DNA of 64,000 bases from Arbacia lixula. Its lineage: Eukaryota > Echinodermata > Echinoidea > Arbacioida > Arbaciidae. The stretch is from the NCBI GenBank assembly GCA_963669155.1, contig OZ022584.1, forward strand, positions 4,617,224 through 4,681,223, read 5' to 3'. The translations under genes and the position numbers were made by a program. Shown piece after piece: positions 4,164 to 63,018 of the stretch. How positions within the stretch are numbered: the first letter of the stretch is position 1; the number at the start of each line of letters is the position of its first letter. The notes below the pieces were generated by a model that searched no databases, was not told where the DNA came from, and worked only from the letters and a program-made list of their open reading frames with translations.

Positions 4164-7100
4164 TGTGCTTTTGACAACTCTTGAGAATTTCCCCTTGCCC
4201 TTATTTATGGTGTTGGTATGTTGCACAAGGATAATGTACAGCAAAAAATCCTCAAAGTCACATAAGAATGTGCAAGCATATGAAAGGGTTTCTTATTGCA
4301 TAACTTTAACGGGGCAATGCCTGATGTTTGGGCCACTGAACTGCAATGACCAATGTGGTGTGGCTTAATTTCGCCCATAGCAAATTACACGGGAGTCGTG
4401 CTGCTTAGTATCTGAGTGGGTAAAGGCCAGCCCCAAATACTCGGGATCAGTAAAGACCGGATAAAGTTGATGGAATGGATTAGATCAAGATCGTGGAATG
4501 CAACATCCATTTACCTGTTATTGTCGCATCTCTTTTTCAATTACTCAGGCGAATGTTTCCGTGCTTTGCTGTGAACATCACCGGCTTGGACCCTGACGCC
4601 CTCTATCGCATATTTGTCACCATTGCGTCCGACGAAAGGTATGCATGTACTTTCACGAGCGAGGCCCTTTAAAACAATGTATTACCATCATTATATTCCA
4701 TTAGGATTATCAATATCATCATTATTGTATATACGTGTGTGTGTATGTGTGAGAGGCTTCTGGCGCTAATTATGCACATAGTCCTTATAAATTATATATG
4801 ATTCAAATACTTCAGATAGTGCAAAATAGCCGAAAGCCATGAAGTACTGGAGTAATGGATTTGTTGTTAAAACTATCAGATACCCCCTCCCCCCTTCTAT
4901 TTTTTTTTTTATATAGGTAAATAAAGTGAAATGAAATAAAATAAAATATAAATAAATAAATGCATAAAATTGAATAAAAAAACATGGTGTTGTAATGATT
5001 TTTTTCCACATGTTTAAAATATAATTCGCACAATAGAACATTCTAGTCCTTTTTGGGATTAACGAACCCTATATCATTTTCGGTGTGACAAACCTTCGGA
5101 ATAACGAATCTTCTGGGGCTGTAACCCGTATTAGAACGATCAAGGTTGTATGAAGCGAGCTGGCGTCACATGTCCATGGTTCAATATCTTAGTGTACGTA
5201 AGTCAGGGAACCGTAAAACTAACATCTTTGATGACAGTAACTTGATGGCTAGCCTTGCTGTATGACCGACCTAGCTGCAAGAATTATATTGATGTGAACC
5301 ATACAGATACACACATTTGTTTTTTTTTAGTGATTTGTATTCTGATTCCATATAATACTAATTAAATTCATACAATTAGTTTAAATGTATTGACAAAACT
5401 TAAATAAAACAATCATGCAAATTATATGTATGCATGTGTAAGTACACATTAATTACAATGAAATAGCTGAAAATATCAAATATGATTTCTCAGTGATTGT
5501 GATAAGGTAATGATGTTAAATGATACAAACTGAATAGCTTCTGGAATTAAGTTTTAAATAAACAAGTCTACTAATCCCGCTGTCCTAACTATTGCTAACT
5601 CCCATCTGGACAGCCAACCCTCCAATCACCCTGACACCAACCTCACCCCAACCATATACATAACCGACTAAATACCCTTCCCTTAAATTCGCTATATAAC
5701 CCCCCCCCCCCCTTAAACACACACTACTTCTACATGTATACCCCCTCCCTTTTTTACCCTCCCGCCATAACCCCTCAACCTCATCTCATATATATATATA
5801 TATATATATTTTGTGAAAGAAATGGATGAAGAGAACAATGGTAGGCGTAGCTTAAATCAAGGTTCCCCAGAGCTATCTACCCTTTGGAAAAATTGGTGAT
5901 GCCGGAAAAAATGTCTCTGCCGGGAATCGAACCCGGGCCCCCAGCTTTGAACGCCGGTGCCTTAACCACTAGACCACAGAGACGGGTTAGTGGCTAAGGC
6001 GACCCCGATCCGATTGACCGTCAGATTGACAAATTCTCGACACAATAGTTTCCTTTGTCGGGTGTAGGTGGATTTTGAACAATGACAAGCCGCCATGCCT
6101 CAGCTGGATCAAAGCGTTTACTTTGATGCAGTACACGTATGGGAGAAAGTATATAAATGTGAGAAATTATACATATACAACAGCTTTGGCAACTCTTTTT
6201 ATTTAAATATTTTGTGAAAGAAATGGATGAAGAGAACAATGGTAGGCGTAGCTTAAATCAAGGTTCCCCAGAGCTATCTACCCTTTGGAAAAATTGGTGA
6301 TGCCGAAAAAATGTCTCTGCCGGGAATCGAACCCGGGCCCCCAGCTTTGAACGCCGGTGCCTTAACCACTAGACCACAGAGACGGGTTAGTGGCTAAGGC
6401 GACCCCGATCCGATTGACCGTCAGATTGACAAATTCTCGACAAAATACCAATTATAGTTTCCTTTGTCGGGTGTAGGTGGATTTTGAACAATGACAAGCC
6501 GCCATGCCTCAGCTGGATCAAAGCGTTTACTTTGATGCAGTACACGTATGGGAGAAAGTATATAAATGTGAGAAATTATACATATACAACAGCTTTGGCA
6601 ACTCTTTTTATTTAAATATTTTGTGAAAGAAATGGATGAAGAGAACAATGGTAGGCGTAGCTTAAATCAAGGTTCCCCAGAGCTATCTACCCTTTGGAAA
6701 AATTGGTGATGCCGAAAAAATGTCTCTGCCGGGAATCGAACCCGGGCCCCCAGCTTTGAACGCCGGTGCCTTAATAAGATTTGTCAATCTGACGGTCAAT
6801 CGGATCGGGGGTCGCCTTAGCCACTAACCCGTCTCTGTGGTCTAGTGGTTAAGGCACCGGCGTTCAAAGCTGGGGGCCCGGGTTCGATTCCCGGCAGAGA
6901 CATTTTTTCGGCATCACCAATTTTTCCAAAGGGTAGATAGCTCTGGGGAACCTTGATTTAAGCTACGCCTACCATTGTTCTCTTCATCCATTTCTTTCAC
7001 AAAATATTTAAATAAAAAGAGTTGCCAAAGCTGTTGTATATGTATAATTTCTCACATTTATATATAAGCATTTATATATAAGCACACACACACATACACA

Positions 7101-10100: not shown

Positions 10101-13100
10101 GGCAGGTGTGTACCTTACGATTCAGATATCGACAATAATGACATCCGGTCAGTGTGGGCCAACACTATCAACATTTCAATCCAAATTGAAATAAACCGAT
10201 TATCACCATAAAGATACAAGGAGCATCTAAATTAATTCCTATAATCAATTATACGTAATGTTCAACAAAGAACTGCTCACTTACCCCGGCTGGAGATGAA
10301 CGCGAGTAGGGAACTCAACCAGCTTCTACAATAGCTCTAAAACAAGATGACAATTTCTCCTCCTCACAATACTGATGTCATTAACATGGAATGGGCCAGG
10401 GAGCTGTGAGAATGTCTCACACGACTCCCTCCCGGGATGAACATAGGGCAACATAGCAAATACTGCCTGAATATAAAGACATTTGGACATTCCTAAGAGA
10501 TGACCCTAACAATGAATCTGCACTCGTTCCCAGTAATCTGCTCTACGTCATAGCTCTCCTTTTTTGTGCAAGGATAAGAGCCCATAAAAGCGCCCTTGAG
10601 TCTTCCAGTGAAAGTCCACCCACATTGTTATGACATTCTTTGCAAAGTGGACAGCTCTTGTTACACGGGGCGATGTCTATGCCCAAACATGGTCATTCTC
10701 TTTTGACCGGAAACCCAATTTCTTTAAATGTAGAGGAGTAAGTCACTTCCGTCCTAATAATTTCCTTATTCTTATTAAAACCCTTAGTATTTTACTGTAA
10801 CATTAGCTTGTTAAAATCACCATGTTACATATGTTTTGTGATTGTTTTACCCCATAAGGCCAAAGTGCTGAATGTCTTCCTTATTAGCCCTGCAGTATTC
10901 TCCACGCTTACCATGTGACAGTCATAAGGCGTTATGAACATCGCTTAGTATTCTTTGGAAGGATATCCGTAAAAGTCATTTGGCATTGATACCACCTTCC
11001 GAGACATACAAATGTCAGCACTGAGTGGATCCTTTTGTCAATTAGTTATTTTGTCAACCTGTTCGTGACTTTGTTCTCTACAGCAAATCGTGCTGCATTC
11101 CATGCACAAGTACACTCCGCGCCTTATCATCGAGCGACTGGAAGCAGCGCAAGGTTCCTCCGGCTCCATCTCCATGCAATGCGGCCAAGGCCAAGGTTCG
11201 TCCACCTCGCCGCAGGGAACCGTCGCAGCATCGACCAATTGCTTACCCATGATGCCCGACGCCGGGGCGAAGCCGAAAGTAGCGCATACTGCCTCGTCGT
11301 CAAGCGGTGGCAGCGCTTCGCCGAAGAATGAGAGTCAGCGCCGCGGCGGGGAATGGGCCGGCAGGCCGGATGTGGCCGTTGATGTCGGATCGGCCAGTGG
11401 TCGTCGCGTGGTTGAGACTACGCAAGTGTCGTTCGCAGAGACGTCGTTCATCGCTGTGACGGCGTACCAGAATGATAAGATCACGCAGCTCAAAATCCAG
11501 AACAACCCGTTCGCGAAGGCTTTCCGGGATGCCGAGGTGGCGGCGTAAGTACATCCTCGTACGCGTCATGGTTGTTGCTCAGCTTTTTCATCATAGTGTT
11601 GAGCAATATGACAAGCTAGTAAATAGTATATAGCACACTAATATATAGCAACAAACATTCCATCGCAACATAATACAAGAAGGAAGACAAAGGATGGATA
11701 AAAAGGATTACGGTAATCAAACGAACGCAACGCAATGAAACATAGCAATTAGCATTGCTCCCTCGTAGCGCGGGAGTACCATGAGCTAGGCATGGACGTG
11801 TTACATGGATAACGTAATGCGTGAGTATATGCTGCATAATAGTTACGGTGAATAATTTCTTTTCTCTCGACAGTATTATACAAGGAGCTTATATGTTCCC
11901 CGAAGACCAGCAGGCGCATCTTCAGCGAGAATATGTGGACAGAGGTGTGTATTTATCATCGTTCATAGCCATTCCAAATGTGTCTGTTTTCGGAAAACTC
12001 TGCATCTCAATGTCTTTATCAAAATTGATGTGATGTTGTTGTCAGATGACCCCAACGAGTATCAATTGTAATGCTTTCTGCTGTAATGCAACGACTTTGC
12101 TGTTCCAAATATGTATATGTAAGTTATAGACATCTTACATTCGAAATTGTTTTCAGTGTTCAACCAAATTACGAAGAAGGATGCTTTGAGCCATGCCAGA
12201 GGCGTCTAGTATTCCTAGACAAGAACAACTAATATAAGTTATTTCCCAGATGTTATATTTTCTTGTCCCTTCATTACAGTAGGTCTATTAACTTTTGCTT
12301 CTTCCTTGTCTTATCCTTCTCCGTCTTCTTCCCCTCATTTTCGTCTTCTTATTTTCCTACGTCGATCCCTCCTCTCCTTCTGTTCTCAACTTATTCGTCT
12401 TCTTCTTCTCCCTCTTCTTCTCCGCTTTCGGCAACTCATTCTCTTTCTTTAACCCGTCCTCTCGCTCTGCTCTTGACTTGTTTTCCTCCTAATTCAGTTT
12501 TTCCCATTTCTCTCCACTCCCCTCCCTCGTCTTCCCACACCACTCTGCAACACCAACTTATATCTCCTGCTTCATATTCGATATTATACTTTAGAGTACT
12601 CGACACCCCATGCCATGAATGCACACGTGACGGGCAAACGCAGACGCGCATCCAGCCAAACGTTCCACCCGTATCTCGGTCACATGCCGAACCAGCCCAC
12701 TCTCTTGTCGCCAACCCACTCCTTGGCCAACGTCCGAGGCGGCATCATCGGGGATGAACACCATCACCACCAGCAGCAGTCACCACAGCACGCCCCTCAC
12801 CACCTGCCGCAACCACATCCCCATCTCCTGGGCGGCCACGACTACCGGTGGGGCGCCTCGTCATCGCACGACATCCCTTCAGATGTAGAACAGGCGAGGG
12901 CGCTTCAGGAGAGTTGTGATTTCTTGGGCATCCAGAGAGTCCGCAGCACGTCGGAGCTGTCAAAGGGCGGTGGCTGGCCGACTGGAGGGCCGTCCGGGGC
13001 GGTACCGGTTCTAGTGGACGTCAGGAAGCGCATGCTGGGCCCCGCACAGGATAGTCGTTTAAACGCAAGGTATACCTCTTTTGTAGAGCCAAAGCTATTT

Positions 13101-32528: not shown

Positions 32529-33937
32529 TTAAGGCATTTCATACAAGTTATCCTCAATGCCAAAATATTGGTTGCTTGCCTCAGCGTATTCAGACTCCTC
32601 TGGGACTGTTGAGGGTGGGTGTGAGGTGGCGAGGTAGCCCCCGGCGTCTTCCTGCTGTCCAGCTGCTGCAGCTGACTGGAGGGCCTCGATGCTCAGGGTG
32701 TCATAGGCATCCTCAGGCCCTACCGCTGCGCTACCGCCGCCTCCGCCACCGTGCTGAGACCCGGCCTTCTGGCCGCGGTTCAGGTGGTCGTACAGCTTGT
32801 CGCAATCCTCAGGAGGGGACAGCTTCGGTGCAAGGCCCTTACTCGGCTTGGCAGCAGGCTTAGTAGCAGGCTTGGCAGCAGGTTTGTTGGCCTTCTGCTT
32901 GGAGTTGGGAGGGGGCAGGCGGGGAGCGGAGACGGAATTCCCGACCCGTTGCCGTGCTAGGTGGTCATAAATGTGGTCATGGTCGTCTGTTTCTGAGTAA
33001 ATCTGGCTGTCATCTCCAGGTGTTCCGGCAGCTAAACTTCCGGGTGGCTGTTCTAGTGAGGAGTAAGCCCCGGGGTCCCCCACATCCTCTAGAGACAGGG
33101 ACGACAAGCTTTCTTGCACAGCTTCCTTGGCCTTATGACTCGGTCGCCCCCTGGGGTTTGGCTTGGGCTTCACCCCGTTGCTCTTACCCTCTGGCTGCTC
33201 TCTCCGCTGCATATGCGGCCACTGCTTCGGGGTAGGTTCTGTGGCGACGTCGTAATGCTGCTCAGGTTCAAAGTCCGCATGCTGCGCTGGTCGGTTGGAC
33301 CCCGGTAACGGGAGCTGGGATCGATCCACAGCCTCATCCGACACAGCCGAGTAAAACTCACTCCCAGGATCACTCTGTGCAGAGGCATTACTCGTGATGT
33401 CGTCCACCGACTGAGCGCCACGATTTGCGTACTGCTGGCGATGGGCGGGTTTCGGCAAGTTGCGGGACCCTGCGGAGTGAGTTCTGTCACGCGGAGCAGT
33501 TGGAGGGAGGACTTTAACTTTCATGTGCTTGATGTCATGTTGTACTGATGGGAATATGGGTGGTGCTTGTTGAGCTGGGTGGGGCGATGGGGACGGGGAT
33601 GGGGGTGTGGATGTGGAAACACTAGAAGGGGCAGTGTTTCTCGAACTCATTGCCGAAACGTACTGCTGGATCGCAAAAAACACCTGATTACCGTCCATTA
33701 CATTGAAGCGTATCAAGCCTTCCCCCGATGTGCACCGACGTCCCACTTCCATGGAGAAGGATGTTTTTTCTCTCCCGTATCGCCGTAGAAACCGATAAGG
33801 CCATGAGTACAGAATCTGCGCTGTGGAGGGCTCGATGAGGGACAGTTTTATTGTGTCAAGCTGCAGCTGGTAGTTTCCATGGAGATTTAAGGAGTCTGTG
33901 AACGCATTCTCCTTGATGGTCACTGGAAACATCTTGT
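32529..33937 (-). CDS. Dok: DOK gene exon 3: PTB domain and tyrosine-rich tail
   Basis: Acceptor TGCATACAG|ACAAG; stop TAA at 32529-32531. The PTB domain fills about the first 100 residues. The remaining 370 are low-complexity with Ala/Lys/Pro runs (KPAAKPATKPAAKP) and YDHL/YDTL motifs. The split Asn codon joins exon 2 in frame. Confidence 0.92.
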
Positions 33938-36900
33938 CTGTATGCAGAAAACAGACAAATTATACATAGAAAAGGGGAGACTAAGTTGCCATAGAAAACA
34001 AGATGTTTAGTTATCTAAATCAATTACAGTTTTCTGCAGGAAACAAGGATCACCTGAATCATGAATTATTGACTTTAAGAAAGAAAGGTGATTTATGTAT
34101 GATTATGCAACATGAGAAATCAGGCAAGTCTTGAAAACAACCCCAGAAGGAAAAACCTCGTTCAAATATTTGCAGTGCGTGGGCAAATTTTCCCTGAGTC
34201 CATGTGCCTGACGTATCATAATGACAAATGATCTGTAGTCTGTACTACAATACTACAATATATCCACTCATGATTACACACGTGTACATGTAGGCCTTGA
34301 CACACAAGCACACTACATTTGCAAATCTATTGTATGCACGAATCCGATTTTAAGAACCCAAATTTACAAAGTAGTTGTAGATTTCGACCATAGTTTAATA
34401 CAAATTTGGGGCGTGTAAACAGATACGTGCGCTTGATTTAGAGTGTGCAGTTCAAAACGGTCAAATAATGAACGTGCATGTGCCACATAGGGTGCTAATT
34501 TCGCCCTAGTTACTATGGTTTAGATCATGGTTTACTGTAAAAGTGGAAGTTTTTGTGCTATTAATTTTTTGCGCTCGGTGGAGTAGAATGAACTTCGCGT
34601 GTTTTTAATTTCACAGGTTGTCCAGCCCTTTGGACGATCAATTCACTCAGCTCACCACTGTCATGCCAGTGCTGGCCGGGCAGCGGCAATAGCATGATGA
34701 ATTTGTTGAAGCGCTGACTAAGGCTAAACCATTAATGCAGGCGTGTGATGTATCAAAGTAAGCACACATACAAAGCGCACCGATATGAACTTCATTTAGG
34801 CGCAAATATGTTCACGCGTTTTTATTTTCGTGCCAAATACAAGCTGCGCGAAATGCGCGAAAATTCCCACTTTTACAGCATTTCAATTGATATGAACTAT
34901 CGTCTTGGTGTAAATCATGGAAACTTTTGTGAATTACGCATGCTATGCAAAAGGTGCGCCCTCATTATTGGACCTGTTTGGAGTGTAGGTGCTAAATCAT
35001 GCATAAAATCTGCTCATTTGCAAAAAATGTCCTCAACCCTTGGTCTAAATGTGAAACGTCTTTGTGAATTTGGGTCAAGGTGTCTCAAAACGATTCCATT
35101 TCCAAACAAACCCCACCCATTCTAATAGCATACCATGTGCGTAAGCCTTATTGCTATGGTTCAGACCATGGTTTATCTCAATCAATTTAAACCATGGTCT
35201 AAACATCCTCCAAACCATAGTAACTACTGTGGATTTAGCATCCTACGCAAAACGCACACATTCATTATCGGACCTTTTGAACGTGTGTAGGGTAAATCGA
35301 GCGTATGTATCTGCTATATATACGCTACAAAATTTGCTTAGACTGTGGTCTAAATTAAAAACCCTTTATCAATTGGTGTCTTGAAATGATTCCACTTCCA
35401 AACATGTTCCACCCAGTCAAATGCATTTTTGTGCAAATAGAGACCTCATTAAGCAAGAAGCACTCTTTGATGACACCTGCCTGTCATGGTAACAGCTCGT
35501 TCACTTCGAGCGCATTGGTAATATTTCTTCTGATGAACATGTTTAAAAGGGTGGTCACTAGAAAATCTGCATTAAGCGCATAGTGAAGTAAATCAAGTCC
35601 GAGCATTCCCATTGGCATTAAGATATGTAGAAGCTAATGTGGTTTTCAAGGCATGGTAATATAAGGGTTAAATCTCTCATTACTACTGGCATGAAGATAT
35701 ACTAATAAAAAAACAATGGGGTTTTCAAGGCATGTTGTTTTAAGGTGTGACATCCAATCCCATTCTGTGCTTGCACCATACCTTTTTTTTACACTAGACA
35801 CCACCATTCAAGTATAGAGTCCTGGGGGGCGTTTCATCAAAGGACTTGTCGGATATTTTATCCGACAAGTTTGCTCTCGGCCAATAAGATGCAAGCATTT
35901 CAGTAGCTTATAACAGTTTGTCGGATAAAACGTCCGACAAGTCCTATGATGAAATGCTCCCCTGAAGTGGCATTGTCATATACAAATTGCTGGTTCTAAA
36001 CAACATTGCTCAGGTGAGAGTTTCAATGGTCCAACAATGTCTAGCACTAGGGGTAGCAGGCTAGGGGCTGGCACTCCCAAAGAGAGTCCCCGCTACCATC
36101 ACCAATGTTTGCTCTACTCGCATTGTTTAGAACCAGTTGTCTTGACAAGGTGCTCATATATGACTTCACACTTCGGTAAGTACTGTAAATAAATGCGTCT
36201 CCATTAGCCCGATCAGACGAAATAGCGAGCTATTTTGCTGATCCGGGGAACTATAGCCTGAAACTGCAATCGCGTCTTCATTAGCTCGAAACTCCGGATA
36301 CGTAAGCTCGAGCTCGGGTTGCATAAATTATCCCGAGTTTCGCACATACCAGCAGTGTGCGATGGGAATAGGCCATGACCGCATGGCTTCGGTTGTGAGC
36401 TCGCATTCACGCACATGTAAAAACCTATTACGTAAACAATGCCTCGTGGGCGCTGATGCATGCCGGGATCAAGAAACTTTCAGGCTAATGAAGACGCTCC
36501 GAGCTAGCTCGAGCTAGTTCGCGAACTAGCTCGAGCTAGATCAATCTAGCCCAAGATTTCTTGGGAAATTTTCTCGACCAAATAGCTCACTATTTTGCCT
36601 GATCTGGCTAATGAAGACACAAATAGCTAGCTATTTCGTGATCTGGCTAGCTAACCCGATCAGAACAAGCTCGCTATTTTGCCCAGCTCGAGCTAATGAA
36701 GACGCCCCTTTTGTGTATTTTGGTTACAGACTTACTTTCACATGAATCGTAGAGGAGATTATCTTGCAGCTCTGTGTCCATGTCTTGTCCCACGGGGTCA
36801 AACCTGCCCCCTCCTCCACCAGCATCACCACTAGCACAACCAACGCCTTGCTCCCGGTCAAACAGGTGGTCCTTTCTCTTCCCGGCCACGTCATGGAGCT

Positions 36901-39900
36901 TAACCAGCCACTGATGCAGGGCTGCCTGACTCTCTGCTGCCAGCAGGTGAAGTTTGTCCTCGCCACACACCAGCTCGAAGGTGTGGTCCCGGTTCTTGTA
37001 CTGGGCTGGCATGGCCTCGATGCGGCAGTCGCAGTGTAGCTTGAGCTGTGTCTTCTTGTCCTTGTCCACCAGGGTCAGCAGAGCATGCTGGGATTGTGCG
37101 CTGGCTCGCGTGACCTTGGCATTGTTCTTGACCCACTTCTTTATCCCCATGGCCTGCTAGAGAGAAGGAGAGGAGATATAATACAAAGGTATTATGTGGC
37201 AGTCAGAATAGTGTCTAGTGCATGGAAGGTGAAATGGTTTACACAAAGAGAAACCTGATATTTATATAGTTATTGTTCTGTATGGGTTGTAAATTGGTGT
37301 GTGTGGGATCTACTATGATAAAGTCTATAGTTTGCTTAATTCTGTGTGGAAATTGAAGGAGGGCTCGTGGACTCCAGGTACATTGCATTGCAGTCCATTT
37401 AATACTCACACAACTCTGATGAATAACTCTCTGTGATGATGAATCTCAAACTCTGTATCTGATGAATCTCCTGAAATGACTCGGGAAATAACTATGCTCA
37501 AATAACTCTGCTGAAATAACTTGGGAGAATAACTCTGCTGAGATAACTGCTGTCAAAATAAATCTGGAAATATAACTGCTTCAAACTCTCTGAGCTCTCT
37601 AAATATATACACTTTCTGTCTCAGTTTGAAGTAAACAATTAAAGTGAAACTCATACAGAAGGTCAGTTTCTTGGATGCATAGTGATCTCTTACAAACTGG
37701 ACCTTACCTAGGTCAGCTATAACCTTGAGGGTAATTGGGCTTTTGGAAAGTGGTCATTCAAGTGGGCGGGGGAGTGATATATAGGACTTATATCACTTAA
37801 CATACTCTTTCTTTGGAAAAATGTGGCTCTCCCACATTTCTTCTTTGAAAATGAAATTTCTAATTATAGCATTTGTTCCACTGTTGAAGAAACTGTTTAC
37901 TGTTGCTCAATGCATCAGTTTCAATACCATTAGTTAACATACATTATTTAATGTTGAGGGTAATTGAGCTTTGGAAAGTGGTCATTCACGTGGGCAGGGG
38001 AGTGATAATAGGACTTATATCACTTAACACCCCCTTTCTTTGGAAAAATGTGGCTCTCCCACATTTCTTCTTTGAAAATGAAATGTCTAATTATAGACAT
38101 TTGTTCCACTGTTGAAGAAACTGTTTACTGTTGTTCAATGCATCAGTTTCAATACCATTAGTTAACATACATTATTTGATACTAACTTCATGTCTTCGGT
38201 AATGTTTTGTCACCTGATCATTTAGCAATTACACACATTATACTCATACATTTTGTAGTTACTATAATCCTTTCCTTTCATTTTGCAGACTTATGCCATT
38301 TCTATTTACATTGATCAAATTACTAAATGGGGCTAAATATAAAGATTAAATGCAACTTAATACAGTCCAAACGAATGTCTCTCCTTGAGAGTTTATAACT
38401 AAAAGTATGATTATCTTTGTATCAGAAGTTCTTTCAAATTAAATATACCCTTGTCAAATTATTTCTAACTCATTAACTATTGACTGTAGTTTCATTGTTC
38501 ACTCGTAACACACCTAGATGATTACTTGTTCTCTTCCTTTAACTGTGATAAATTCATCGTTCATTGGCCTTTGCAATTCACATCCAATAACTGCTATCAA
38601 TTTGTTATGTTCACCTTAAAAATCTTGAATCAAACTATTATGAGCTTAGTGGCTGCGCTCAAGAAAATGAAGTTATCAATGTTCTCACATTGGGCCTTAA
38701 GTTTATACTTCACATTAATCTTTCCCACAATTGTTCAATTGCTTGCTCAACTCATGTTGTCCATTTTATGGTTTACACAAGTACTTTCAAACTTGTTTGC
38801 TTATTCACTCAACAAATCTGACTTTCATCTCATCAAGACTTCTGTAATACATCAATTTCAGTATTAACACTGCTTGGTATGATTAACCACATTTTATAAG
38901 ACATTTAAATAAATTTTGTTGATTCACATGAACAATCTCTGTAGCATTTTCCTTGGAGAACCACAGATTGGAATGATGTTGTCAAGTAATATCTTCTTGC
39001 TAAATCTTTGGGATCTGAATATTGGTTTAACTTCCACCAAAAAACAGTTGAAAACATGTCCCACAAAGGGGATGTTATGTGATATAAGTCCTTTTATCAT
39101 TCTCCCACCCAAATAATGTTTCCACGGTGAATGACCACTTTCCAGAAGCCCATTACCCTCAAGGTTATAGCTGACCCTTGGGTTTTGGGGGCTAGTCTGA
39201 ATAACATTTACTGGAATTCAGGATGGCGTAGGAAAGGTCCAGTTTCTGTAATGATCATCATGCATCCAAGAAACTGACCTTCTGTATTGAATTTCACTAT
39301 AATTGTTACTCCAAACTTGAGACAGAAAGAGTATTTAGAGAGCTCAGAGAGTTTGAGAGAGTTATTTCAGCAGTTGTTTCAGCAGAAGAGTCTGAAGAGT
39401 AAGGAAATATCTTACCGTGGACATTGCAAAATCGCTCGCAAATGCATTGGTGTTACCTTATTTTGATTGCTGTTCTATTTCATGGACAAACTGCAATTGT
39501 CGGATAAAAGACATTGTTATCCAACAACACAACCAAATGGCTCAAATTAATCTAATGACCAATGCACTCACGCCAACCATTGAAATGTTTAGAAGCCTTA
39601 AGTGGATTGATATGGAAAAATGCTGGCAATTTCAAAAAGGAAAACTCATGTTTGACATTTTGAATGGCAATGTGCCCTCATATTTACAAAACATGTTTAC
39701 ACCTTCCATTACAGTGCATCGCTATAGTACAAGAAACGCTGAAAACAAAGGCTTACTAGTTCCAAAAGCAAGAACAGAGAATCGTAGGAAGGCTTTTTCT
39801 TTTGAAGGTGCGGTTCTTTGGACCGCCCTTCCAAACCAAGTAAAGAATGCACAATCCCAGAATACATTCTGCTCTCACTACATGAGATTTTGTGAATAAT

Positions 39901-56088: not shown

Positions 56089-56094
56089 TTTATT
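56089..56094 (-). terminator. Polyadenylation signal AATAAA of the kinase gene
   Basis: AATAAA on the minus strand, about 50 bases beyond the TAG stop at 56144-56146. The distance is short but plausible. Confidence 0.5.
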
Positions 56095-56143: not shown

Positions 56144-57152
56144 CTAACATGAAGACGAGTCCCCGTCACACCCCTGATCCCCCGCAAACCTCATCCGAAG
56201 AATCTCTTCCATTACCTGAAGAAGGGTGGGCCTCTCGTCTTGACCAGTCTTAGAAACAGCGAGTCCGTAGCTCTGTAAATCTGGGAACTGCATCTCCTCC
56301 CCGATGACCTTGAGGAGTCTCCCAAGAGCGAAGACATCGCTGGACGTAGAGCATGGCTCACCTGCCAGGACACATTCTGGAGCCATGTGCCCGTAGTCCT
56401 CGCCCTCCAGGTAGGCCTTTGTGATCTCGTCATCCACAGGCACTTCCCACGGGTCGGAGATGTCACTGGCGCAACCAAAGTCAACCATCTTCCCTCTCCA
56501 AAGCCCCGCCTCCTCTTCTCGGACTACCAAGATATTGTCTTCCTTGACGTCATTATACAGGAAGCCCCTTGCGTGGATGGCTTGCAGTCCGAGTGCCACA
56601 TCTCCAATGACGTGGAACCACTCATCCCTAGACAGGCAAGGTCCGGTGTTCTCCAAGCAGTCGCTGATGGTGTAGCTAGTTCCATCGGTCTCAGACCCCA
56701 TGAACTCAATGGCCAGACCCGTCCGACAACCAATCACCCTGACTGTACCATAGAGTGCGGGGAACCATGGCAGATCACCCAGGGCCTTCTGGATCCTGAT
56801 CTCATCTCTGAAGAATCCAATGGGAAGGTCCAGGACCTTGAGTGCCACAGGACACTTTGTTTTGGCATGCCGATGAAGGTAAACGGTACCGGACACACCC
56901 GATCCCAGCTCCCGACTTCCGTCCTCATCCCAGCCGATCAGATCAGACATGGACGCTACTGTCTGAGTGGTCAAGCACGGGAGGTTGTCATCGCTATGTT
57001 GAGGTTGGTTGGCTGTGGCGTAGTCTGTGGTTTCAGACGCTGTTAGTTCACCAACAGACTGGATGGAGCTGACTAGTTCATTCGCACCCTGGCAAGATGG
57101 ACGTGGGATTGCTGCACTCACTTCTCTCTGTTGTGATGTGGGTTGCTTGATC
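56144..57152 (-). CDS. Kinase gene exon 8: protein kinase domain
   Basis: Acceptor CTCCACCAG|GATC, stop TAG at 56144-56146. The kinase core is complete in this one exon. Motifs: GSGVSGTVY, PVALKVL, RDEIRIQKAL (alpha-C Glu), FLYNDVKEDNILV, MVDFGCASD, YGHMAPECV, SSDVFALGRLL and DERPTLLQV. The activation segment contains an EGEDYGHMAPE stretch. Most similar in feel to divergent Ser/Thr kinases, but not assigned. Confidence 0.9.
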
Positions 57153-60100
57153 CTGGTGGAGGAAAATCGTAAGAGGAGAGAAGTAAATCAGTGTTACCAC
57201 GGTTACGATTTGTTATAGTCAATCTATTGTTCATCAAATAATTTCTTTACAAATCTTGTTTTTTCTTGCTTTATTTTTCTACATCTTAAACTAGCATATG
57301 TTCATGTTCTCAATCGAGGCTTTCTATTCAAAATAATTTCCCAGATGACCTAATTGTAGCTTGAAGGTCAAGATGGGTCTGTACTGTGCATAATGTCAAA
57401 ATGTAATTTCTAATGGTGAATCATTTAAATTCATGACACTCACCTAGCAGTCTGCTCATCCCTGGCTAAACGCTCCCGATCTCCGGAGACCGACAGATTC
57501 AGATGATCTCCTGTTTTAACTTGCTCTGAGACAGGAGGTCCCTCCTTCTCAATCTGTGCAGACACCCAAGATCCCTTCGACACGGTCTGAGTGGTGCCTG
57601 AAGATGGGTCTTGGAGGGGTTCTTCACGCCAAGGAGGAGTGGCCAGCATAGTCTCGATATCCCCGATGTTGGCCATGATGTTGTCAGATAGGGCCGTCAT
57701 CAGGTCAAGGTCAAAGGTCTGGGTTGACTTTGGTGACACCATTGGCTGTGTCTCATCCTCGTGGGTATTGATATCGGGAGAGAGAGCCGTCATTACATCA
57801 ATGTCAAAGGTCTTGATTGACTTTGGTGACACCATGGGTTGTGTCTCATCCTCGTGGGTCTTAATGTCGGGAGGGAGGGCGGTCATCACATCACAGTCAA
57901 AGGTAGGGGTTGACTTTGGTGACACCATGGGCTGTGTCTTATCATCGTGGGTCTTGATGTTGGGAGGGAGGGCCGTCATCGCATCAAAGTCGAAGGTCGG
58001 GGTTGACTTTGGTGACACCATTGGCTGTGTCTCATCCTCGTGGGTCTTGACGTCGGGAGAGATGGCCGTCATCGCATGAAAGTCAAAGGTCGGGGTTGAC
58101 TTTGGTGACACCATGGGCTGTGTCTCAACCTCGTGGGTCTTGATGTCGGGAGGTAGGGCCGTCATCGCATCAAAGTCAAAGGTCGGGGTTGACTTTGGTG
58201 ACACCATTGGCTGTGTCTCATCCTCGTGGGTCTTGATGTCGGGAGAGAGGGCCGTCATCGCATCAAGGTCAAAGGTCGGGGTTGACTTTGGTGACACCAT
58301 TGGCTGTGTCTCATCCTCGTGGGTCTTGATATCGGGAGAGAGAGCCGTCATCGCATCAAAGTCGAAGGTCGGGGTTGACTTTGGTGACATCATATCCTGT
58401 GTGTCATCCTCGTGGGTCTTGACATCGGGATAGAGAGCCGTCATCGCATCAAAGTCGAAGGTCGGGGTTGACTTTGGTGACATCATATCCTGTGTGTCAT
58501 CCTCGTGGGTCTTGATGTCGGGAGAGAGGGCCGTCATCACATCACAGTCAAAGGTCGGGGTTGACTTTGGTGACATCATTAGCTGTGTCTCATCCTTGTA
58601 GGTAGTGACGTCGGGAGAGATGGCCGTCATCGCATCAAGGTCAAAGGTCGGGGTTGACTTTGGTGACACCATTGGCTGTGTGTCATCCTCGTGGGTCTTG
58701 ATGTCGGGAGAGAGGGTCGTCATCGCATCAAAGTCAAAGGTCGGGGTTGACTTTGGTGACGTCATATCCTGTGTGTCATCCTCGTGGGTCTTGTCGTCGG
58801 GAGAGATGGCCGTCATCGCATCAAAGTCAAAGGTCGGGGTTGACTTTGGTGACACCGTGGGCTGTGTCTCATTCACGTGGGTCTTGATGACCGGAGAGGG
58901 AGACAGTATGAGATCAAGGTCAAAGGTCGGGGTTGATTTTCGTGATGTCATATCCTGTGTCTCATCCCTGTGGGCCTTGACTTTCAGAGAGGGGGTCAAC
59001 ATCAGACCAAGGTCACAGGTCTGAGTTGAGATGGATGACGTCACGGCCTGTGCCTCGCGCTCTTGGCTCTAGGAATTTAAATAAGATAACAATGGACAAA
59101 ATTTCAAAAAGCCACTTATTATCATTACGTTATATCTTTAATGAAAGTTAAACTTAGGTTTATTTTAAAGCTTATTTTATAACTCATCTCAAGAGTGGTT
59201 TGATTCGCTCTTTCATGGGTACTTCATTCTATTCCTTTTATATAACGACAAACATTGGGCTTGTGATTTTATATTTCATATTAGTGTAGTTCTGTATTGG
59301 TCGGGACATTTAGAAATGATTGTACACTTTACACAGTTCTCTTATACTCGTATGTCGCATAAAAATGAATTTCTCTCACAAAATTGCATTTATTGTCAAG
59401 TTAGTTCGTTTATATCATGTTCATGTTTTAATGCACATCTTTATACTTTGCATACCTTAAGCTCTTGCTCTGCCAGCCGCTTCAATTCCCGCTCCTCCGA
59501 GAGGGCTTTCTTGAGCGCGCTGATCTCTCGTCTGGTCTCCCTCCACTCCCCCATCATCTCGGCCACCACGTCCGCTGCGCTGCTACTAGCCCGCTGGATC
59601 CCCATGAAGGCTGCCAGTCCCTGCACATCACACACATAACCAACAGCAGCTTAATACTGACGACCGGTCCATAGGAATATTGGCATGTTCAATTGTTTCA
59701 TTGATTTAAAACAATATATTTCATGCGCCCTATGCTGGTAATATTAGCATAGCATATACAGTATAGAAACAATTACAATAACTCATTCCTTAACATTAGT
59801 TTGTGGGAAGAAACAAAGAATGAATGTGTACTATCGGTGGGGCTATCCCACTTTGTTAAAAGCCAATATGAACAGAAAGTGATCCAAGCTTAGCTACGTA
59901 CTATAGGTGGGGCTAAGAAGGGGTGGAGGCGGGGAGGGGGTCTTTCTTACGTGGAGTGTCTCCTCTGATGATTGGTTCTTCTCCTGCTCCTTGAGGAGAG
60001 CTGTCTCCAGGTGATGCAAACGGTCTCGGGATGCCTTCCATTCTCCTTGGATACCGGAGAGCATCTCAGAATCGTCACGCCCACCTCCTCCGATGCCAAG

Positions 60101-60330
60101 GGAGTCTGCCAAGGTCTGTATGGAGAAAGGCATTTCTTTACATAACTTATCTTGTCTTATCTTACTTGTGATTTATGTATGGCAAACATGGTAAAAATGA
60201 AGCACTTATCATGATTCAGGCAAGAATTTAAAGGGTAAATATATTGAAAGTACAAAGAAGGTGCTCGGACAGAGGAGAGGGGGGGTGGTGAAGGGAGAAA
60301 AATAGAGAGAAATGTAAAGAGAACGGAAGA

Positions 60331-60373
<43 letters not shown>

Positions 60374-62602
60374 GAGAAAGAGAGAGAGAGAGAGTAGAGA
60401 GAGAGAGAGAGAGAGGTAGAGTGAGAGGGGATAGGAGGAAGATGACGCTAGGGAGAAGGGATATGAAAGAAATAGGGATAGATAAAAAATAAAAAGCTGG
60501 AAGAAAGATTAAGGAGGTAAGGCATTTCTTGTTTCGTACAGTGATGTCAAGAATCAACCCTTCAATGCCGTGCACAAACTGTTCTAAAGGACTTGTCGAC
60601 ATTGTTGTGACGCGATACTCACATAAAAATGACACACAATGGCTTAATCCGATAACTTCACCAATCTGAATTGTACCTTCAAAGTCCTGGTCTTCTCCAA
60701 AACCTGTGCGTCCTTCTCCTGCAAGGACACCTGAAGGTAGTTGACCTTTGTCTGACAGCCCCTCAGCTTCCCCATGATGACGTCATCTACCAACGTGACG
60801 TCAGAATCAACAGGGAGTGTGATGCCCAGAGAGGATGCATACTCCTGTGGAATGTTTTTTTATGCAAAAGAAAGTAATTACTTCATAGATTGACAGAATA
60901 TTATCTCTTTCTTTTTAATATCTGCCCACCCTTTCCCCTCTCCTACATACATCTCTGTACTACTTCCCTTCTTCTTCTTCTCCTCCTTCTTCTTCTTCTT
61001 CTTCTTCTTCTTCTTCTTCTTCTTCTCCTTTTTCTTCTTCTTCTTCTTTTTCTTCTTCTTCTTCTTCTTCTTCTTCTTCTTCTTCTTCTTCTTCTTCTTC
61101 TTCTTCTTCTTCTTCTTCTTCTTCTTCTTCTTCTTCTTCTTCTCCTTCTTTTCTGTTCTTTATATTTATTCGCTCCTTGTCCTTGTTTTGCCTCTCTTCC
61201 GTTGTTTTTATTATTTTCATATTGTACTCATATGACACCTTCTACTTCTTTCTTCTTGGTCACTTTTTCCACCTTCTGCTTTCACCCTGTGTTTCTCACC
61301 TGCATCCGGTCTCTAAGCATCTGATATTTTTGCGCCAAATCCTGATGGGATTTCAGATGCAGCTCCCATGCTGCTTCCATCCGGGTCACTGTGATGTCAG
61401 TGGTGTCACGTGCCCGCTGCACTCCCATGGATAGCGCCAAATTCTGATGAATCATACAAATGTAATTTATATTGTTAGTATGAAAGTCGGCCGGAAAATT
61501 AGCGATTAGGATAATAATGCAAGCTGGAAAGGATGATTTTTTTCTCCATAATTCATATTCTTTTTAGCTTTGACTAGATGGAAAGAAAGGGGGGGGGGGG
61601 GAGGGAGAGGAAAAAAATAATGATACATATTGATCGATATTTTTAAAAAAAAAATAAATGGAAGAAATTCAACAACTTATTAACATGCACATTAATTTAA
61701 TATGGAAAATGGGACATTCATAAATGATGTAGTTTGCAAGTCATTGAAATGTAAACAAATTCAGGAATCATACCGCTAGACGTTGTTCGAGCAGTTTTTC
61801 TGCTGATTTGTCCGTTTGTGAAGGTGTGGGAAGGTGTTGAAGACGTTTGCCAGCACGATGGAAGACTGGCAAGGAGTCTACGTCTGAAATTCGCCGGACA
61901 CATTCTTGCAGAATCTATTGATTATTCCCGGGAAAAGAGGAAACTTTGCTTTATATGATTGTTATAAAGGCCCATGAAAAAAGATAAGTTGGAAAACTGG
62001 TGAGGACATGAGTTCACAAGGTTGATTGATGACTTTCTTCATTCACTTATTCTCTTCAACTTGTTCTTTCTGGCATTCGTTTCTATTAGATGAAAGACAA
62101 CTCATACCGGCCCAACAATTTACCATCACAATAATGACAATATTAATTTCCATAATTCAGTTTTGAGCAGAAAGATGAAAAAACCGAAATATGATTGTTT
62201 AATGTTGTCGTCATTTCAATTTTCTTTAAACTAGCGAGTTTTTGTATTTGTTCTGCAAAGGGGAGACGGACAATAAACACCAGGCCTACAATCTACACTC
62301 ACAACAATGACAAAATCAATTTCCAAAAGGATTAATAAATTTTTAAGCAGAAAGAAAACAAAAAATAAAAGAGCTAAGGTTTTAACCAACGTGATTGCTT
62401 AATGTTGCCGCCATTCAGGATTTTCTATAGCGAGTATTTCTGTTCCGAAAACGAAAAAAATAATAAACTGTCTTAAGATGATTAAGGAAAAAAGGCGTAC
62501 CTTGGCTCGAGCTTTGGTCTCGTGAGAGACGACTTGACCAAGAAGTCGCCGATCTGAACGACCTCTTGGGAGATGGCGAAGGAAGTGGAGTATGTCCGCC
62601 AT
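56144..62602 (-). CDS. Modular coiled-coil, 31-residue-repeat protein kinase (eight coding exons)
   Basis: Exons 62602-62501, 61914-61774, 61443-61300, 60844-60677, 60115-59951, 59620-59456, 59068-57444 and 57152-56144 join at GT-AG sites into 1172 codons. Residues 1-81 form a basic lead-in. Residues 82-295 (exons 3-6) hold four related modules with x-L-A-x-x-[LM]-G-[IV] at the start, then heptad-like Leu/Glu/Lys-rich helices. Residues 304 to about 768 hold fifteen 31-residue repeats. Residues about 915-1160 form a kinase: GSGVSGTV loop, VALKVL lysine near 942, FLYNDVKEDN catalytic loop near 1038, DFG near 1061, APE, and the subdomain XI Arg. The catalytic machinery looks intact, though HRD is YND. 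Likely cytoplasmic, as I see no signal peptide or membrane segment. I do not recognise the family; the function of the N-terminal part is unknown. ATG 62602 has an ideal Kozak context; an in-frame ATG at 62617 is weaker. Confidence 0.85.
57444..59068 (-). CDS. Kinase gene exon 7: fifteen 31-residue tandem repeats
   Basis: Acceptor ATTCCTAG|AGCC, donor CTAG|GTGAGT; 1625 bp. Fourteen full 93-bp units (57743-59044) and a partial fifteenth encode variants of SPKSTPTFDFDAMTALSPD followed by a THEDETQ-type tail. The period is exactly 31 codons throughout and there are no frameshifts, so the array is constrained as protein. Inner units are nearly identical; end units (TSSISTQTCDLGL, SPKSTQTFDLDL) are diverged, as expected if the array grew by unequal exchange in its middle. 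Each unit has two or three Ser/Thr-Pro sites and a TQ. Confidence 0.92.
59456..59620 (-). CDS. Kinase gene exon 6 (coiled-coil module 4)
   Basis: 55 codons, phase 0 at both ends (acceptor GATGTGCAG, donor AAG|GTATGC). Starts GLAAFMGIQRASSSAAD; EMMGEWRETRREISALKK and onward is a strong predicted helix. Confidence 0.85.
59951..60115 (-). CDS. Kinase gene exon 5 (coiled-coil module 3)
   Basis: 55 codons, phase 0-0 (acceptor CCATACAG, donor CAC|GTAAGA). Starts TLADSLGIGGGGRDD; GIQGEWKASRDRLHHLETAL parallels the EW-centred helix of exon 6. Confidence 0.85.
60333..60417. repeat. (GA)n microsatellite with poly-G
   Basis: GAGA repeats interrupted by a run of G, in kinase intron 4. Confidence 0.95.
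60677..60844 (-). CDS. Kinase gene exon 4 (coiled-coil module 2)
   Basis: 56 codons, phase 0-0 (acceptor TTCCACAG, donor AAG|GTACAA). Starts EYASSLGITLPVDSD; the helix VNYLQVSLQEKDAQVLEK is heptad-like. Confidence 0.82.
60967..61145. repeat. (CTT)n, that is (GAA)n on the transcribed strand
   Basis: About 180 bp of almost pure CTT with CTCC and TTTTT interruptions, in kinase intron 3. In the gene's orientation it reads as GAA repeats, which can form triplex DNA. Confidence 0.95.
61300..61443 (-). CDS. Kinase gene exon 3 (coiled-coil module 1)
   Basis: 48 codons, phase 0-0 (acceptor TTCATCAG, donor CAG|GTGAGA). Starts NLALSMGVQRARDTTD; contains MEAAWELHLKSHQDLAQKYQ. Confidence 0.83.
61774..61914 (-). 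CDS. Kinase gene exon 2
   Basis: 47 codons, phase 0-0 (acceptor CAATAG, donor GCG|GTATGA). Encodes ILQECVRRISDVDSLPVFHR, a basic Pro-containing stretch, then a short helix SAEKLLEQRLA that may begin the coiled coil. It lacks the module signature of exons 3-6. Confidence 0.75.
62501..62602 (-). CDS. Kinase gene exon 1 (start)
   Basis: 34 codons from ATG at 62602 (context ACAGCATGG), MADILHFLRHLPRGRSDRR and onward, ending AAG|GTACGC in phase 0. Basic N terminus without a signal peptide. Confidence 0.75.
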
Positions 62603-63018
62603 GCTGTCCCAAAACATGAAGACATGCTTTACTGCAGCACATGCAGTTTACTTACAATAATCTAAAATATACTAGGCATCCAGTTTAAGCTATACCATAT
62701 TTGAAATGTAGTGTCAGTCGTGCGGAGCACGAATATAGTCACTAGATTGGATCTTATCGGCATCATCTGAAAGTTAAGAAAAATTAGTTTCCATATTTAT
62801 CTCTATCTCTCTCCCTCACATACACACATGATATATATACATGAATATGCACACGTACGCACGCGTGCGCTGTGTTAGAGGCCTAGTGTATAATACACTT
62901 TCACAAGTTGCGGCTAAACTTTTGTTTAGCTTTAAGACCGTTTGTCTCATTAATTCGTCAATTTCATGCAAGTGGTAACTTTCATCACTTCATGTGAGAA
63001 AAGAACATTTGATCTTAC

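Follow-up and report, generated by a model that had tools for sequence, protein, structure and literature searches.

The closest described counterparts of the gene reported here are the protein kinases of Pfam family PF00069, the kinases NIK (MAP3K14) and NEK9 and, as regards its repeats, the C-terminal domain (CTD) of RNA polymerase II and KNL1. The gene lies on the minus strand (56144-62617) of a 64,000-nt stretch of Arbacia lixula contig OZ022584.1 (assembly GCA_963669155.1, positions 4,617,224 to 4,681,223), which in its whole length is referred to as the window. Its kinase domain and those of its relatives resemble PF00069 kinases in that the catalytic motifs are present, but differ from them in having xND in place of HRD, in having HMAPE or HIAPE, and in that the profile singles out no named family as the closest. 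NIK, its best single-sequence match in the PDB and a kinase with a TRAF3-binding motif in its N-terminal part, is likewise without the HRD Arg, the alignment showing HGD at this place, although the family profile does not uphold a relation. NEK9, which has a coiled coil and an LC8 site, similarly holds a kinase, a possible helical oligomeriser and TQT in one chain; its domain order differs, however, and the window gene has a tandem array and TQT sites at odds with the +2 preference of dynein light chain LC8. By eye, the array is like the CTD in consisting of tandem units dense in Ser/Thr-Pro and like KNL1 in repeating short docking motifs, whereas its unit is 31 residues long, unrelated in sequence and joined to a kinase of its own. 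KNL1 MELT-type repeats were considered as a candidate and dropped. With moderate confidence, we read the locus as encoding a stalk-tether-kinase protein, that is, a putative non-RD kinase assembled through an N-terminal stalk and bearing a Ser/Thr-Pro tether of variable length.

Among the matches listed in the literature on this family and on kinomes, such an architecture is not described, which is not a claim that it is absent from print. In an oyster kinome study, 28 oyster kinases are given as unclassified and a like statement begins for 21 of the sea urchin (PMC4883820). Such kinases would fit an undescribed family, without identifying it.

The gene consists of eight exons (E1-E8) with every splice site GT-AG and a single open frame, comprising 1177 codons from the first ATG (62617) and 1172 from the second (MADIL). 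It is the second ATG that is matched as the start in a tandem copy of the gene, and MVDIL occurs at the same start in a further copy on C2. Introns are in phase 0 after each of E1-E6 and in phase 2 after E7. The features, all on the minus strand, are as follows.

62501-62602, minus strand: exon 1, with the conserved ATG (MADIL...); an in-frame upstream ATG lies at 62617
61774-61914, minus strand: exon 2 (ILQECVRR...), without significant Pfam or PDB match
61300-61443, minus strand: exon 3, module 1 (NLALSMGVQRA...)
60677-60844, minus strand: exon 4, module 2
59951-60115, minus strand: exon 5, module 3, with heptad-like periodicity
59456-59620, minus strand: exon 6, module 4, with heptad-like periodicity
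57444-59068, minus strand: exon 7, the repeat exon, 541 whole codons
57638-59032, minus strand: 31-codon tandem units, n=15, consensus KSTPTFDFDAMTALSPDIKTHEDETQPMVSP
56144-57152, minus strand: exon 8, linker, kinase domain and stop TAG (56146-56144)
56147-56950, minus strand: kinase domain with the C-terminal tail, from MSDLIGW... to ...DSSSC; residues 13-214 of this segment match Pkinase
56089-56094, minus strand: AATAAA hexamer, a possible polyadenylation signal about 50 bases past the stop

Searches of the window's own assembly (607.0 Mb, 590 contigs) identified two close kinase matches, namely a tandem copy on C9 (same strand, 18 kb away, 99% identical) and the copy on C2 (90%). The tandem copy has E2-E6 at 95-98% and an open repeat exon of 1534 codons upstream of its kinase, and its E2-E8 join to a stop-free frame of 2130 codons; its E1 lies outside the fetched stretch, where it was matched at 94%, and is not part of the joined frame. 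In the C2 gene, E1-E8 join to 1034 codons, also stop-free. As these two other loci repeat the exon order, the splice sites and the frame, the gene model is beyond chance, and the eight-exon protein-coding gene proposed in the first-pass annotation is confirmed as real with all exons in frame. The recurrence also makes it unlikely that the repeat and kinase exons belong to different genes, the circumstance named there as refuting the model. The ratio of nonsynonymous to synonymous substitution (dN/dS) indicates purifying selection on the kinase and the modules, with values of 0.152 for the kinase and 0.344 for E2-E6 between the window gene and the C2 gene, and of 0.083 and 0.334 between the window gene and the tandem copy. 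With its catalytic residues intact and dN/dS low, the gene is apparently functional and its kinase core complete, as had been supposed. The suggestion of an unusual architecture stands in so far as one gene combines the parts; the combination is not unique, being present at the two other loci, and the modules are spread wider than the repeats.

The E3-E6 exons encode 48-56 residues each and open with a motif resembling LA-x-x-(M/L)-G-(I/V), which is blurred in E4. When scored against shuffled sequences, the pairs E5/E6 (z 10.1), E3/E6 (5.6), E4/E5 (4.0) and E4/E6 (3.9) were similar, while E3/E4 (z 0.3) and E3/E5 (z -0.1) showed no similarity above shuffles. These four of the six pairs indicate that E3-E6 are homologous modules of common origin. 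Heptad-like periodicity rises above shuffles in E5 (p 0.013) and E6 (p 0.010), and the coiled-coil nature of the N-terminal region reported at first pass may thus be regarded as partly shown, the helical signal of E1-E4 being weak. The E1-E6 region gave nothing significant against Pfam (best E 0.6) or the PDB (none at E <=1).

The E8 domain matches PF00069 Pkinase (7.7e-20, 72-73 bits against a curated cut-off of 31.7), as do all 15 family members scanned. G16, G18, G21, K38, E50, D134, N139, D157 and A190-E192 are present in the window domain and invariant in the 15 aligned rows, a set picked from the 80 kinase places among those with open frames. No catalytic residue is lost in the window domain, and a pseudokinase was accordingly rejected. 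In all 15 rows the catalytic Asp is preceded by Asn (N133), giving xND rather than HRD, so that these are not RD kinases. The domain was filed as a putative protein kinase for which no named family could be identified. Nine bacterial kinase models of NCBIfam scored 20-34 bits against cut-offs of at least 280, which was put down to general kinase likeness. Pattern searches gave 4 and 17 matches in viral contigs and 34 in prokaryote genomes, none of which was confirmed by tblastn.

The kinase domain has matches at no fewer than 80 places of the genome at E <=0.001, corresponding to 67 on 17 contigs after merging of pieces within 1.5 kb, a step which also fuses some neighbouring kinase domains. 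The gene thus belongs to a large family of kinases in this genome, and the kinase phylogeny envisaged in the first-pass annotation, run within the window's genome, agrees in placing it as one of many. This tree took in 28 of the 80 places, and the window gene falls in a nine-row clade that also holds its two close copies as well as kinases of C1, C13, C5 and C16 (support 96/92). Modules were found upstream on the kinase strand in eight of the 19 fetched loci besides the window (L009, L010, L011, L012, L014, L015, L022 and L024), L009 and L010 being the close copies and the other six deeper paralogs. A profile drawn solely from modules of the window gene and its two close copies, and then iterated, detected those upstream of L011, L012, L015 and L024, and a wider module profile added L014 and L022. 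Weak pieces of L014 (i-Evalue 0.5), L022 (0.17, 4.4) and L011 (0.64) were seeded by hand, with an L025 piece (0.38) left out, and owing to this seeding the later E-values of the L014 and L022 modules are not independent. E6 alone matches L014 by tblastn at 0.002, and a third L015 module surfaced unseeded at 0.055. Reversed-sequence controls in three rounds gave 0, 1 and 0 hits below 0.1. Three of 27 hits at i-Evalue < 0.1, in L020 and L021, were discarded as being antisense to the kinase and apparent short tandem repeats, nor were the weak hits lying upstream in L021 (1.2) and L025 (2.3) taken as modules. With L014 and L022 scored as lacking modules, the module label requires three changes on the tree. 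Since L022 lies outside the clade, the modules would be older than the nine-row clade or would have been gained or lost repeatedly. Taken together, the genes appear to form a little-known kinase subfamily, the design of which recurs in related genes with tethers of very different length.

Other family loci show features of their own. L038 (C9:21338400-21339600) is a decayed relic in which pieces resembling E3 and E5 are interrupted by stops and near which no kinase match is listed. At C13:17.60-17.66 Mb, which includes L022 and L023, kinase matches recur in pairs on one strand, the two of a pair about 2 kb from each other, and may represent genes that each have two kinase domains. A cluster at C13:22.70-22.89 Mb comprises eleven distant kinase matches of about 31% identity, on both strands, and L026, from this cluster, has HND and an acidic tail. 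Probable pseudogenes are L013, in which by eye the frame of the N-lobe is probably shifted, and C6:25690611-25691393, with three TGA stops.

In the window gene, the repeat units are spaced by 31 codons in 14 of 14 intervals. The repeat exon and linker hold 37 Ser/Thr-Pro sites against a shuffle mean of 15.7, with none of 2000 shuffles as high, bearing out the density remarked on at first pass; the excess overstates independence because the units duplicate each other. The repeat exon has a net charge of -56 and a fold index of -0.073. Unit number is 15 in the window gene, 47 in the tandem copy and 11 in the C2 gene, with all 73 units in the 31-codon register. A Pfam hit to DUF7491 on the repeats scored exactly at the cut-off with no single stretch passing alone, and was rejected as summed repeat noise.

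Under the stalk-tether-kinase reading, the modules would form helices that oligomerise the protein, and the acidic, proline-rich array would act as a flexible tether of variable length. Its Ser/Thr-Pro sites may be phosphorylated, probably by proline-directed kinases, and such phosphorylation could bring in partners or determine how far the kinase reaches. Kinases without the HRD Arg are usually not switched by phosphorylation of the activation loop. As this Arg is absent before the catalytic Asp, the kinase would need no such phosphorylation, and clustering through assembly of the modules would be the likely switch.

A number of results weigh against this reading. Oligomerisation, phosphorylation and the mode of activation are inferred, and heptad-like periodicity in E1-E4 is no better than in shuffles (p 0.13-0.38). 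No accepted module was found in 11 of the 19 fetched loci (L013, L016-L021, L023 and L025-L027), an absence that is inconclusive given the 2.9 kb stretch of L023 and runs of N in some loci. For E1, dN/dS between the window and C2 genes is 0.56, based on few changes. Among units within arrays, the ratio of nonsynonymous to synonymous differences (pN/pS) is 0.75 in the window, 0.66 in the tandem copy and 0.43 in C2, and between array consensuses it is 1.11 for window and C2, 0.66 for tandem copy and C2, and 0 for window and tandem copy. The distinct variants of the window array comprise 18 synonymous and 53 nonsynonymous changes, a synonymous share of 25% against a neutral 26%. The array is therefore weakly constrained and may be largely a spacer, whereas the kinase and the stalk, with their low dN/dS, are under constraint.

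One alternative, which we consider possible though less probable than the stalk-tether-kinase reading, is that the array is a coding minisatellite serving spacing alone, grown and shrunk by unequal crossing-over, while selection keeps the frame, the kinase and the stalk. The differing unit numbers of close paralogs (11, 15 and 47), the near-neutral variant ratio of the window array, the pN/pS of the two C9 arrays (window and tandem copy) and the value above one between the window and C2 consensuses are what such an origin would leave. Matches to the 31-residue repeat also agree with it, in that at least 37 were found in the genome, with all 37 in the three close genes and none found beyond them. 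Contrary to it are the strict register of the units in three genes, the lower pN/pS of the C2 array, and the consensuses of the window and tandem-copy arrays, which differ by three synonymous changes and no amino-acid change. Deeper paralogs on C1 and C13 moreover have, by eye, other Ser/Thr-Pro-rich repeats at the same place ahead of the kinase.

Alternatively, the tether could be a docking strip for LC8, dimers of which would fasten the chains to one another alongside the stalk, although we regard this as improbable. The repeat exon and linker contain four TQT triplets, where shuffles average 0.68 (p 0.0045), in a stretch predicted to be disordered, as an LC8 anchor should be, with disorder judged from composition alone. 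TQT stands directly after the array and directly before the kinase in all three close genes, the C2 repeat exon has six, and ANTQTD and IETQTE are found in the deeper C16 paralog. The anchor Gln within units is nevertheless kept in just 2 of 15 units in the window, 1 of 47 in the tandem copy and 6 of 11 in C2. Hydrophobic residues at +2 are described as poorly accommodated by LC8 (PMC6607443). The +2 residues of the four window sites are C, F, V and V, contrary to this published preference, and the flanks are consequently not of the favourable kind.

A diverged orthologue of NIK is a still weaker proposition and in our judgement very unlikely. It would account for the single-sequence PDB search, in which the 11 best matches are all NIK (top 41 bits, the next other kinase 32). 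With the family profile, however, the best 60 of 2738 PDB matches contain no NIK chain; TNIK/MINK, CDPK, MAP4K4, STK24, IKK-alpha, RIPK1 and B-raf chains follow one another between 77 and 65 bits. In the tree NIK and TNIK stand apart from the 28 family rows, though at a support of just 89/90 and on long branches, these two being the sole outside rows and the ones on which we placed the root. Least credible of all is a pseudogene or an artefact of the assembly or of the gene model, since the gene, although known here from genomic sequence and having family copies with stops or shifted frames and one decayed relic without a kinase match, keeps its exon order, splice sites and frame at three loci with low dN/dS.

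If the stalk-tether-kinase reading is true, animal kinomes beyond the model species hold a kinase subfamily with an architecture of its own. The three close genes would then provide a natural series in which the same kinase carries one type of unit in 11, 15 and 47 copies, allowing a direct test of tether length and phosphosite number against kinase reach and output, a question usually answered with engineered proteins. A far broader proposal, to be viewed as doubtful, is that of a large undescribed animal signalling system with dozens of non-RD xND kinases in one genome, ancestrally made up of helical stalk, disordered tether and kinase. Tethers would turn over and expand as coding minisatellites, so that phosphosite number and reach would differ between paralogs and perhaps individuals, and the kinase would be switched on when its stalk clusters on a sensor acting upstream, as in lineage-specific innate immune pathways.

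Elsewhere in the window, three 72-nt tRNA genes with anticodon UCA (Rfam 60.9 bits each) were identified at 5912-5983 (-), 6312-6383 (-) and 6831-6902 (+). The two minus-strand copies fall within a tandem repeat of 409 bp (5799-6774), and the plus-strand copy is followed by a run of T. Exact matches to the 72-base tRNA occur at 40 or more places in the genome (all 40 scored of 473 candidates), several of them 408-409 bp apart. These copies may be either a tandem tRNA element dispersed through the genome, which would decode UGA, or a repeat derived from a tRNA; selenocysteine tRNAs are longer than 72 nt. By eye, the translation of an open reading frame at 11069-11545 (+) resembles the end of a T-box domain, and those of 32532-33959 (-) and 36677-37156 (-) resemble DOK-type PTB and PH domains.

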